Positions 2,634 through 6,135 of a stretch of DNA of 37,307 nt are shown here, piece after piece (position 1 is the stretch's first letter; each line of letters begins with the position of its first letter). The DNA comes from Gammaproteobacteria bacterium. Its GTDB lineage: Bacteria > Pseudomonadota > Gammaproteobacteria > Arenicellales > Arenicellaceae. A program made the position numbers and the translations under genes. The notes beneath the pieces were generated by a model, which saw nothing but the letters and a program-made list of their open reading frames with translations, did not search any database and was not told the DNA's origin. The stretch is taken from assembly GCA_022447525.1 (NCBI GenBank), contig JAKVBA010000011.1:6842-44148 (forward strand). The letters run 5' to 3'.

Positions 2634-2656
2634 CTCAATCGCTTGATCCAAATTTG

Positions 2657-3814
2657 ATGCAATCCGAAATCCTAGCAAATGTATCATGGCTGGCTCTTTC
2701 GCTGGCCTTTTCTTTGGGTGTCATAATTTCTTATTGGCTACCTAAAAAGTTGGGTAGACCCAAAAAGGATAAGGTCAATAAGGATTATTTTAAAGGGTTG
2801 AACTTTCTTTTGAATGAGGAAACGGATAAGGCAATTGACTCCTTTATTAAAGCGCTCGAAGTTGACAATGACACCGTTGAACTACACTTGGCATTGGGGG
2901 GCTTATTCAGGAGAAAGGGACAAGTAGACAGAGCGACACGCCTACATCAAAACTTGATAGCGCGATCAAACCTCACCGAAAGACAACGTTTTGAAGCCAT
3001 CTACGAATTAGCGCAAGACTATTATAAGGCTGGTTGGTTAGATAGGGCGGAAGGTTTATTTGACGAGTTAAAGTCTTCGGCCACCTTCAGAGCCGCAGCC
3101 ATTAATGGCTTGTGCGATATTTATCAACGTGAGAAAGAGTGGCAACAAGCGATTGATGTGCTTAATCAACACACGCCGTCAGAGCGCACCAACTATTCTA
3201 AACAGATATCTCATTATTACTGCGAGCTCGCCGAGATAGGCTTGGAAAATTTAGACTACGAGCTGGCTTCCAAATTACTCAAAAAAGCAAGCAAAGAAAT
3301 AAGCTCAAATCCAAGAGTTTCGGTGTTACAGGGAGAGTTGGCATTTCAACAAAAAAACTATCTAGAAGCATTAAAGCAATGGCTTGCTTTATCCAATTCA
3401 CAGTCGAGCCTACTTCAGCTGGTCGCTGGAAAAGTGATCTATTGTTTTCAACAAACAGGGGATAAGGCTGGATTAAAAGAGTTTGTACTAAATTTGGCTG
3501 CGATACCTCGTCATGGCCACGATTTCAGGTCGTGGTATGAAGCTCTATCGGACTCGCTTGGTACGGAATTGGCCGAGGAGCATATTCTAAAACGAGTTGA
3601 GCTTGAGGGCTTATCAGGGCCGGTTGCCAATCACCTCTATCATGCGGTTGATAGAGATCTAGCAACTGATGAGAGCAAGGCTCAATTGTTAAAAGAGTTG
3701 CTGGGTCGCGCAAAAAGCAAAAAGATTGAGTATACTTGTTCTGGGTGTGGGTTCGATACCAAAGCAATGTATTGGTATTGCCAAAATTGTGGTGAGTGGG
3801 ATAGTTTTCGATAA
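2657..3814 (+). CDS. lapB: Lipopolysaccharide assembly protein B (TPR/rubredoxin-like)
   Basis: LapB (YciM) is an inner-membrane-anchored cytoplasmic TPR protein. It presents LpxC to the FtsH protease and so sets LPS synthesis; ftsH is also in this window. The N-terminal hydrophobic helix (about residues 5-24) is the anchor, and residues 40 to about 340 are tandem TPR helices (FLLNEETDKAIDSFIKALEVD is one). The C-terminus is a rubredoxin-like knuckle with two CxxC pairs (CSGC and CQNC), needed for function in E. coli. Length is 385 residues against 389 in E. coli. I chose ATG 2657 over the adjacent TTG at 2654. pyrF, the common downstream neighbour, is not present. Confidence 0.94.
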   Translation: MQSEILANVSWLALSLAFSLGVIISYWLPKKLGRPKKDKVNKDYFKGLNFLLNEETDKAIDSFIKALEVDNDTVELHLALGGLFRRKGQVDRATRLHQNLIARSNLTERQRFEAIYELAQDYYKAGWLDRAEGLFDELKSSATFRAAAINGLCDIYQREKEWQQAIDVLNQHTPSERTNYSKQISHYYCELAEIGLENLDYELASKLLKKASKEISSNPRVSVLQGELAFQQKNYLEALKQWLALSNSQSSLLQLVAGKVIYCFQQTGDKAGLKEFVLNLAAIPRHGHDFRSWYEALSDSLGTELAEEHILKRVELEGLSGPVANHLYHAVDRDLATDESKAQLLKELLGRAKSKKIEYTCSGCGFDTKAMYWYCQNCGEWDSFR

Positions 3815-3920
3815 TTTAATATATGACTCTATTCTGTGTATCTGAAATGTTAAATCTTGTTGGGCTCGAGGGTCCAAAGATTACGGATTTGGCTGCAGGC
3901 ATCGAATTAAAATAGCGAAA

Positions 3921-5288
3921 TTGACAGTGACAGACTTGGTTAAGAAAATTGCTTTTCGGGGATTAGAAAAGAAAGAGGAAATCCTATTCAAATCCTTTCT
4001 GAATCTCGTTAAAAATGATTTGGATTACGCAGTTGAGCTGATCCAAGATCCTGACAGTTTGTTGGATGATGCTGACATCGTTATCGCTGATATTGATTAT
4101 GAGTTGACTGAGGATGAGTCAACCATGACTCCACTCCCCACTCTAAAGATTGGGGCAGACCCCAGTCTGTCTGCTCCAGACTATCTTGTCAGGCCTGTAC
4201 AGTGGAGTGATTTCCGAGAGGGTTTGCTTAATGTAGGGTCTAGCCCTGTTGAGTCGAGCAAGGAAATTGTCGATGCCGTAGAAAAGAATGATGAGCGGTT
4301 ACTTCCGACTAATTTGTCACTTGAAATGGGTGACGCCGGCGTGGATGCGGGTATCACTGGGGATATCGACGAAGACGAAGAAGTGTCCCGAAGCTTTTCT
4401 GATGCCTCCGACTATAATTTCGAGTTGGATAAGATGAGCGTGGATTACCATAGCTTCACCAACAGCGAGTACGTGAAAGCGGCTGCCGACGATGTTAAAG
4501 GGTTTCATGAGGATAAAGGTGAGCCCGAAGCCGTGATGCTGGTTTCAGATGATGAAAGTGCGAATACAAATAGTGTTTTGGTCATTGAGACAAATTCCTT
4601 GGACGCGTGGGATATGGAAGACTCAGAATTTGATGACTTACATTCCCATAGTGTAGAAACACCATCTGAACTGGAGATGCCGGACCTAAGTCCTAAAGAG
4701 CGAAAAGAGGTAAAGGGTAAGCTCGCGGCCGGAACCACAGTCGAGTCTATATCTGAAATGTGGATGACGGAACAGGAGGTGATGATAGGCCCCCAAACAC
4801 TTTTCATAGTAAGGCCTGGAGAGAGAAAAGTGTACTCTACTCGAGAGCCAGCAAGATGGATTATTGCTATGAAGAATAAGGAGCTCACCAGTGTCCCGTT
4901 GGCTGATGATTGGAAACCTTCTTATGAATTGAAGGCTTTTCCACTTGAACGCTTGATTTGGATTAACACCCTAGTTGGACGCAGTCAGAAATTGGATGAT
5001 GGTTTGTCGGACACACAAGAATTTATGCTTATGAAGTGGCCACACTTCGAGTTGTTAGAATTAGATAACTCGCTACTTAAAATGACAACCATGCTCTTTG
5101 TTGGGCCCGAGAGTGCTTACAGTCTGATGCAAAAGACAGGGCTGGGTCGCGCTGTTGTGTATGGCATGCTTAACGCATGCAAGGAATTAGATCTATTAGC
5201 TTCTCAAGAGCAAATTAAAAACTTAAGCTCGCAAAAAGCAGAACAAGAGTCCGGAGTCTTTGGAAAGTTAAAAGACGCTTTTCGATAG
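3921..5288 (+). CDS. Uncharacterised protein with degenerate receiver-like N-terminus
   Basis: I do not recognise a characterised homologue. Residues about 8-105 look like a worn response-regulator receiver: a first strand (KKIAFRGLE), an [12 protein letters not shown] strand where the phospho-acceptor aspartate would sit, and an endpoint resembling the K-P pair but with arginine ([11 protein letters not shown]). Residues about 106-255 are a strongly acidic, low-complexity linker, probably disordered. Residues about 260-440 form a compact domain with many aromatics ([30 protein letters not shown]) and end in a helix-rich, winged-helix-like part ([27 protein letters not shown]). The start is uncertain: TTG 3921 and GTG 3927 are both possible and neither has a clear ribosome-binding site. 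It lies between lapB and dapB on the same strand, 43 bases before dapB. Confidence 0.85.
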
Positions 5289-5331: not shown

Positions 5332-6135
5332 ATGAGTAAGTTAAAACTTGCAATCACTGGTGTGGCTGGCCGTATGGGTAAGACGCTAGTGCAAGCGATT
5401 AGTCAGGATCCAGATGTTGACTTGGGGGCGGCGTTGTATAAGGCAGATAGCTCATTGCTTGGAGTTGATGCTGGAGAACTTGCTGGAGTTGGTAGATTGA
5501 ATGTTCCTGTCACTGATAATCTAAGTAACGCCGATTATGATCTACTGGTAGACTTCACCCTTATAGAGCCATGTTTGAAGCATTTGGAATTAGCTTGCTC
5601 GGCAAACAAGCCAGTTGTCATCGGGACAACAGGATTTAATGATGAGCAAAAAGTGCAAATTGAGTCAGCTGCACAGCAAATTCCAGTGATATTAGCGCCG
5701 AACACTAGTGTGGGTATTACTCTATGCTTGCATCTATTGAAAACTATGGCGCCAATACTGGCACAGGATTCTGATATCGAGATTATTGAAGCACATCATA
5801 GGCATAAAATCGATTCGCCCTCGGGAACTGCGATAAGACTGGGGGAGGTAATCGCTGAAACCTTGGGAAGAGATTTGGATGACTGCGCAGTCTATGGCCG
5901 CGAGGGCATCGAAGAGCCCAGAGATAGAGAAACCATTGGTTTTGCAACAGTGCGCGGTGGTGACATCGTTGGTGATCATACCGTGTTATTTGCCAGTGAA
6001 GGGGAGCGCATTGAGTTGACACATAAAGCGTCCTCTAGGATGACTTTTGCAAAAGGCGCAATTAGAGCAGCGAAATGGTTATCGAACCAATCAGCGGGTC
6101 TTTATGACATGCATGATGTGCTTGGATTAAAATAG
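5332..6135 (+). CDS. dapB: 4-hydroxy-tetrahydrodipicolinate reductase
   Basis: DapB makes tetrahydrodipicolinate with NAD(P)H in the diaminopimelate/lysine pathway, supplying peptidoglycan and lysine. The Rossmann motif GVAGRMG is at residues 10-16. The strand leading to the DFT turn is near residues 71-76, and GTTGF follows around 98-102. The catalytic signature [15 protein letters not shown] gives H155 and K159, matching H159 and K163 of E. coli. Length 267 residues against 273. It lies upstream of carAB, as in many gammaproteobacteria, but a hairpin terminator and a 339-bp gap separate them. The ATG start gives the normal N-terminus. Confidence 0.97.

Follow-up and report, generated by a model that had tools for sequence, protein, structure and literature searches.

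The closest described counterparts of the protein analyzed here belong to the Group 3 MglA systems. According to Wuichet and Sogaard-Andersen (2014; PMC4316618), these systems occur almost only in beta- and gamma-Proteobacteria, including Neisseria, Stenotrophomonas, and Xanthomonas, and have mglA and one or two mglB genes adjoining the gene of a partner, a functionally uncharacterized protein in which a variable linker joins a receiver-like N terminus to a winged-helix-like C terminus. MglA GTPases of Groups 2 and 3 are described there as having a D-x-R sequence at G5 and as lacking the G4 lysine. A Group 3 mgl locus has also been reported in Snodgrassella, in a study whose available text is centered on mglB (PMC11112851). 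No further paper on the Group 3 partner was found by title among the MglA, receiver, and roadblock papers listed, which is no proof that none exists. Two other systems offer looser parallels. RomR of Myxococcus xanthus has been described as a receiver-domain protein that interfaces with MglA; it belongs to a Group 1 system and is alike in its working only. In actinobacterial conservons, CvnC/MfpC partners Group 2 MglA-type GTPases, and MfpC is reported to be a likely exchange factor (PMC13343842); the GTPase partner is a shared feature, but a receiver part is not mentioned in the available text of that source, and the likeness is one of description only.

The window, the whole stretch of 37,307 nucleotides analyzed here, contains between lapB and dapB a gene whose product, the orphan protein, shares the layout of the Group 3 partner, a receiver-like N terminus and, after a variable linker, a winged-helix-like C terminus, and is homologous over its full length to 19 such proteins, the majority encoded next to MglA-like genes. 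The form in the marine genus Arenicella differs from the Group 3 partner in that its gene adjoins neither mglA nor mglB, 10 of 18 genomes yielded no Group 3 MglA, the Ser/Thr of β4 and the Lys of β5 are lost, and the linker holds two conserved islands. The family is identified, and it is already known as an observation because PMC4316618 describes the layout; it is uncharacterized, and the Arenicella form is a new variation on it. We favor, with moderate confidence, the reading that the orphan protein descends from an orphaned Group 3 MglA partner and has turned into a GTPase-independent protein with a putative docking role.

The open reading frame at 3921-5288 on the forward strand, 455 codons counted from TTG, is present. 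Judged by the sequence alignment, the true start is probably GTG 3927 rather than TTG 3921, because 16 of the 18 Arenicella orthologues have GTG at the aligned start position (TTG and ATG in one each), which gives a protein of 453 residues plus stop (3927..5288, +). Pfam confirmed both flanking genes named in the initial annotation, lapB upstream (2654..3814, +; TPR and Zn_ribbon_LapB) and dapB downstream (5332..6135, +). At 3890-3927 of the window, and at the same place in loci L031 and L035-L039, hexamers resembling TATAAT, TAAAAT, or TAGATAAC stand ~11-13 bases upstream of the GTG; the 18 bases that precede it show no obvious Shine-Dalgarno sequence. The transcript may have a very short leader.

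The degenerate receiver domain comprises residues 1-106 (3927..4244, +). In a full-length model (pLDDT 64.7), residues 5-104 fold as a receiver in which the regular second helix is missing. Model residues 3-109 match receiver domains in VIA (top Z 10.9, rmsd 2.6, 100 aligned, a PhyR entry), and the 50 matches listed are all receivers or receiver-bearing proteins except two, which are a chain of mycobacterial complex I. Foldseek with the receiver part returned nothing at E ≤0.001, the best match (1.4e-3) being a receiver complex. The predicted structure thus agrees with the degenerate receiver claimed initially, and the strand and the R-P in place of K-P that were noted in it are present. In the window protein, Asp55 of β3 is kept, and the acidic pair, Ser/Thr, and Lys are replaced by R11-G12, G76, and R89. 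The β1 acidic pair is missing in all 18 Arenicella proteins, which have Lys, Arg, or Ile followed by Gly at these columns; the 19 relatives have no acidic pair there either, although in L118, L124, L140, and L150 two neighboring acidic residues follow two to four columns later. The phospho-acceptor Asp of β3 occurs in 16 of 18 Arenicella proteins, including that of the window (Glu in two), and in 13 of 19 relatives. The Ser/Thr at the end of β4 is found in none of the Arenicella proteins (Gly in all 18) as compared with 10 of 19 relatives, and the Lys of the β5 K-P in none (Arg in 17, His in one) as compared with 14 of 19. The orphan protein therefore has in common with a canonical two-component response regulator the receiver fold and the β3 Asp but lacks the acidic pair, the β4 Ser/Thr, and the β5 Lys, and a phospho-competent receiver was rejected on these residues. 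Because the receiver fold is without a complete phosphorylation site, the protein is likely to be a phosphorylation-independent adaptor, as had been proposed.

No family in Pfam, NCBIfam, PHROGs, or PDB sequences matches the orphan protein. The description "unrecognised" is accurate to that extent and ceases to hold where the literature is concerned, the layout having been described, unnamed, in PMC4316618. Weak Pfam matches (best Methyltransf_35, 0.044, and DUF3877, 0.047) differed between members and were rejected; in scans at E 1, no Pfam family matched more than 3 of 18 Arenicella proteins or more than 1 of 19 relatives. Plasmids gave no match, and public genome contigs gave none in a single-protein search and 15 loci in a search with the alignment. 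The route to the family was a weak match in genome G007 to a BLUF-domain protein with a C terminus resembling that of the orphan protein; profile comparison of the two sets of C termini gave E 1.1e-6 (prob 90.9). The combined C-terminal profile matched 23 of 369 genomes sampled from the class, and the full profile matched 12, four being Arenicella in each case. The newly found proteins have the same receiver-linker-C-domain layout, and a comparison of the 18 Arenicella proteins with 19 distant members by hhalign gave E 3.4e-21 and prob 99.4 over 327 columns that span both domains, at a low identity of 12-20% in the C-domain. Against PDB sequences, the relatives' profile is headed by two designed TIM barrels (E 6e-4, positions 31-79) that were taken as chance; the next matches, none better than E 0.05, are response regulators and ArsR/SmtB/MarR proteins. 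Two further weak matches, reading by eye as an RNase III-like (L025) and a peptidase-like (L020) open reading frame, were also taken as chance. Short open reading frames in another family of the order (L185 of genome G061, and G063:C1:39514-39822) match the receiver part of the relatives' profile only (E 6e-12).

Outside Arenicella, 23 of 29 gammaproteobacterial loci have an MglA-like GTPase gene directly downstream of the family gene in the same orientation, and in one of the 23 (L144) the two are fused; roadblock genes lie in the flank (~1.5 kb) of 13. The 29 loci, of whose proteins the 19 aligned relatives are a subset, exclude Arenicella, the duplicates L147, L148, and L152 (of L123, L118, and L119), the pieces in genome G019, and L185, which has the receiver part only in a 143-residue frame; the GTPase queries were taken from four of the 29 and from the BLUF-linked locus L080. 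Six loci are without a GTPase in the flank. Two of them (L136 and L151) are weak matches that are possibly not family members, and the other four (L120, L141, L149, and L153), each read with ~1.5 kb around it, may be orphan-like copies outside Arenicella. Genome G225 has two family members, L119, which is separate from its GTPase, and L144, the fusion. Among 13 aligned GTPases, eight from family loci and five BLUF-linked, every one has D-x-R at G5 and none has the G4 lysine, in agreement with the description of Groups 2 and 3. Within the order, only genome G066 has, outside Arenicella, a family protein with an adjacent Group 3-type GTPase.

The linker (residues 107-254; 4245..4688, +) had been described as an acidic stretch of 150 residues. 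It comprises 148 residues with a summed net charge of -34 and is mostly disordered (pLDDT under 50 for residues 106-250), and to this description must be added two strongly conserved islands, at residues 161-195 (4407..4511, +) and, around a DDES sequence, at residues 203-232 (4533..4622, +). Their mean conservation in 18 Arenicella sequences is 0.74 and 0.82, as compared with 0.66 for the receiver, 0.78 for the winged helix, and 0.26-0.44 for the other parts of the linker. The C-terminal domain (residues 255-425; 4689..5201, +) is common to the GTPase-linked relatives by homology and in the model. The aromatic and helical C terminus of the initial annotation is, in a model built from 37 sequences (pLDDT 85.8, pTM 0.81), a folded domain that runs from a helix through β-strands and a second helix to a tri-helix of winged-helix type, with a short helical tail at the end. 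Profile and fold comparison places the winged-helix-like part at residues 367-425 (5025..5201, +). The conserved amphipathic tail helix (5247..5285, +), defined by alignment and model, has counterparts in the relatives, and the BLUF proteins of Arenicella carry both the winged-helix part and the tail. The charge of the last 18 residues is +1 to +6 in the relatives, +2 to +5 in the BLUF proteins, and -1 to +1 in the Arenicella orphan proteins.

Profile and fold searches with the C-terminal part, as had been suggested, yielded the relatives but no fold match reaching Z 8. Foldseek with the C-domain model found nothing at E ≤0.001 (best 0.54, a winged helix), and a viral fold library gave nothing at E 0.001. 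In VIA, GATOR1/SEAC chains lead (Z 7.0, 6.5, and 6.4), followed by other winged helices, and six of the top seven matches are chains of GATOR1/SEAC entries (Z 7.0-5.7). The top match, 9h4q_T, aligns 72 residues of the winged-helix part at Z 7.0 and rmsd 3.1, within the range of chance arrangements, and the listed matches fall within model residues 103-198 and barely touch the first half. We assume the matched chains to be Npr2/Npr3 subunits. Because all Z values are below 8, the likeness is a curiosity; there is no sequence link between the C-domain and Npr2/Npr3, and a roadblock nature of the domain was rejected, profile comparison giving prob 0.2 and no similarity.

Winged-helix domains frequently bind DNA, and the orphan protein could be an atypical transcription regulator, with the pseudo-receiver as the sensor of a ligand or partner and the winged helix as the DNA-binding part. 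Most of the C-domain fold matches listed are winged-helix or HTH proteins, including several regulators, and the C-terminal part of the relatives' profile weakly matches ArsR (E 0.08), SmtB (0.18), and MarR (1.3) among PDB sequences. The winged-helix core is not always acidic (charge -4 to +3 across the Arenicella proteins and -4 to +4 across the relatives), and gene regulation has been proposed for Group 3 systems (PMC4316618). However, the recognition-helix stretch is close to neutral (charge 0 to +2 across the Arenicella proteins and -3 to +2 across the relatives), every C-domain fold match is below Z 8, and in the relatives the gene is linked to a GTPase gene, in one case as a fusion, so that we consider a DNA-binding regulator unlikely.

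A second alternative, that the orphan protein is still coupled to a GTPase, namely the BLUF-linked MglA where there is one and a Rup-type or other cellular GTPase elsewhere, is drawn from the relatives, which adjoin GTPase genes, and from the Arenicella genomes themselves. A search with a GTPase query and a 13-sequence profile found Group 3-type GTPases in 8 of 18, always beside BLUF proteins with the same winged-helix part. In the other 10 the search yielded no Group 3 MglA; among them is the genome of the window, where the best profile match was at E 0.41. Many assemblies are drafts or metagenome assemblies, with completeness down to 78% within the genus, so a single absence is weak and ten together are stronger. 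The orphan gene is equally present in these 10 genomes, so that the protein persists there in the absence of its usual partner, and where Arenicella has a Group 3-type GTPase, its gene lies elsewhere in the genome, away from the orphan gene. Other small GTPases, Rup-type by eye and excluded from Group 3, occur in G001 (E 5e-7), G003 (5e-5), and possibly G014 (0.0076). They could be partners of the orphan protein in these three genomes; none was found in that of the window. We judge continued coupling to a GTPase improbable. Two Robl_LC7 matches in the window's genome, below the curated cut-off and falling by eye in a short uncharacterized and a transposase-like open reading frame, were taken as chance.

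The orphan gene is single-copy in the window's genome (96.5% complete), and an intact orthologue with 33-64% identity to the window protein is present in 18 of 18 Arenicella genomes. Whole-gene dN/dS is 0.029, 0.012, and 0.036 in three pairs, two more of the five pairs being saturated. Because it is intact in all 18 genomes and dN/dS is 0.012-0.036 in the three pairs that allowed an estimate, the open reading frame is a real gene, conserved otherwise than by chance. The context at the Arenicella loci is rpsA-ihfB-lapA-lapB-orphan gene-dapB-carA, three further neighbors carrying HU/IHF-type, LapA, and carbamoyl-phosphate synthase small-chain domains. Downstream, dapB and then carA follow in the window and in 17 of 17 other loci read; upstream, lapB is found in 17 of 18 genomes including that of the window, in two as a partial gene at a contig edge. 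The exception is G011 (87% complete), in which lapB was not detected at the locus (L042) or genome-wide at E 1e-10 and the orphan gene is kept; at L042 4341-5029, ~690 bases without a long open reading frame lie between lapA and the orthologue. The orphan-gene tree has 7 of 15 bipartitions in common with the dapB tree and 7 of 15 with the carA tree, where label shuffles of the carA tree shared a mean of 0.26 and a maximum of 2. Its 10 strongly supported bipartitions are in strong conflict with dapB in none and with carA in five, and because of the latter, vertical descent of the whole neighborhood is not proven.

In 109 genomes of the order, the profile of the 18 Arenicella proteins found, beyond Arenicella, a sole match at E 0.01, in G019 of the same family. 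In this sister genus the syntenic copy (L197 2726-3756), between lapB and dapB, is broken into short open reading frames in different frames. G018 and G020 of the same family gave no match to the orphan protein; the G020 contig stops a short way past lapB. At 23 lapB loci in 22 genomes of other families of the order, neither the orphan gene nor dapB was found in the flank (≤1.5 kb); in 16 of them the next genes are, by eye, ComEA-like and/or UDP-glucose-dehydrogenase-like. The gene-neighbor survey found lapB (17/18) and dapB (18/18) as neighbors in the genus; pyrF, said initially to follow lapB often, was read by eye at none of the 23 lapB loci. The suggested link to envelope synthesis, in which the protein would be an envelope or LPS adaptor tied functionally to LapB, draws on the upstream position of lapB. 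It is very unlikely: the gene is retained in G011, where lapB was not detected, no such gene was found after lapB at the 23 loci of the order's other families, the constant neighbor is dapB, and the closest gene association of the family is with the Ras-like GTPase. That the gene is a decaying relic being lost, as the broken copy in G019 and the missing matches in G018 and G020 might suggest, is scarcely credible for a gene that is intact in 18 of 18 Arenicella genomes with dN/dS far below 1 where estimable.

We judge a GTPase-independent docking protein to be the likeliest reading because the phosphorylation site is incomplete, the recognition-helix stretch is near neutral, the linker contains conserved linear motifs, and no GTPase was found; stand-alone docking is probable because the gene sits alone beside dapB and no such GTPase was found in more than half of the genomes. 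The pseudo-receiver and the winged helix would both be protein-docking surfaces, neither a phospho-switch nor a DNA reader, and the linker motifs would recruit a genus-specific partner, so that the orphan protein would act as a constitutive scaffold for which the GTPase is not needed. In the relatives, the same protein would link an upstream signal to MglA, possibly by serving as an exchange factor or effector, and by analogy its C-domain could act on MglA as the likely exchange factor MfpC of the conservons does. How the Arenicella form arose can be proposed only tentatively: the adaptor may have outlived its GTPase, loss of Group 3 MglA having been followed by fixation throughout the genus, loss of the remaining switch residues, and gain of new docking motifs in a GTPase-free scaffold. 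In that history, the C-domain is possibly a prokaryotic parallel of the GATOR1 winged helices, Npr2/3 having tandem wHTH domains (PMC3521125). Because more than half of the Arenicella genomes keep the partner without the GTPase, the partner's own activity is separated there from that of the GTPase, and its function is testable without MglA.

The small GTPases at L221, L222, and L223 are Rup-type by eye; beside those at L221 and L222, the genes read as encoding a membrane protein, an Hpt-like protein, and a histidine kinase with a receiver. The Group 3-type GTPases of Arenicella form a different arrangement, a BLUF protein gene followed by the MglA-type GTPase gene and a roadblock-like gene, with nine GTPase genes in 8 of 18 genomes (L080-L087 and L096; genomes G007, G002, G008, G017, G013, G015, G005, and G011). 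The BLUF protein of G007 (L027) matches Pfam BLUF at 3.8e-21, the other copies having been assigned by alignment. The Ras-like GTPase gene follows its gene, and the roadblock-like protein of this genome is below the cut-off (E 2.2e-4); Robl_LC7 is above its cut-off in 4 of 18 Arenicella genomes. No paper on such a module was found by title among the literature matches listed. The gene order and domain content suggest a light-controlled Ras-like GTPase module, and the operons also suggest that input domains have been swapped on a common GTPase-facing domain.
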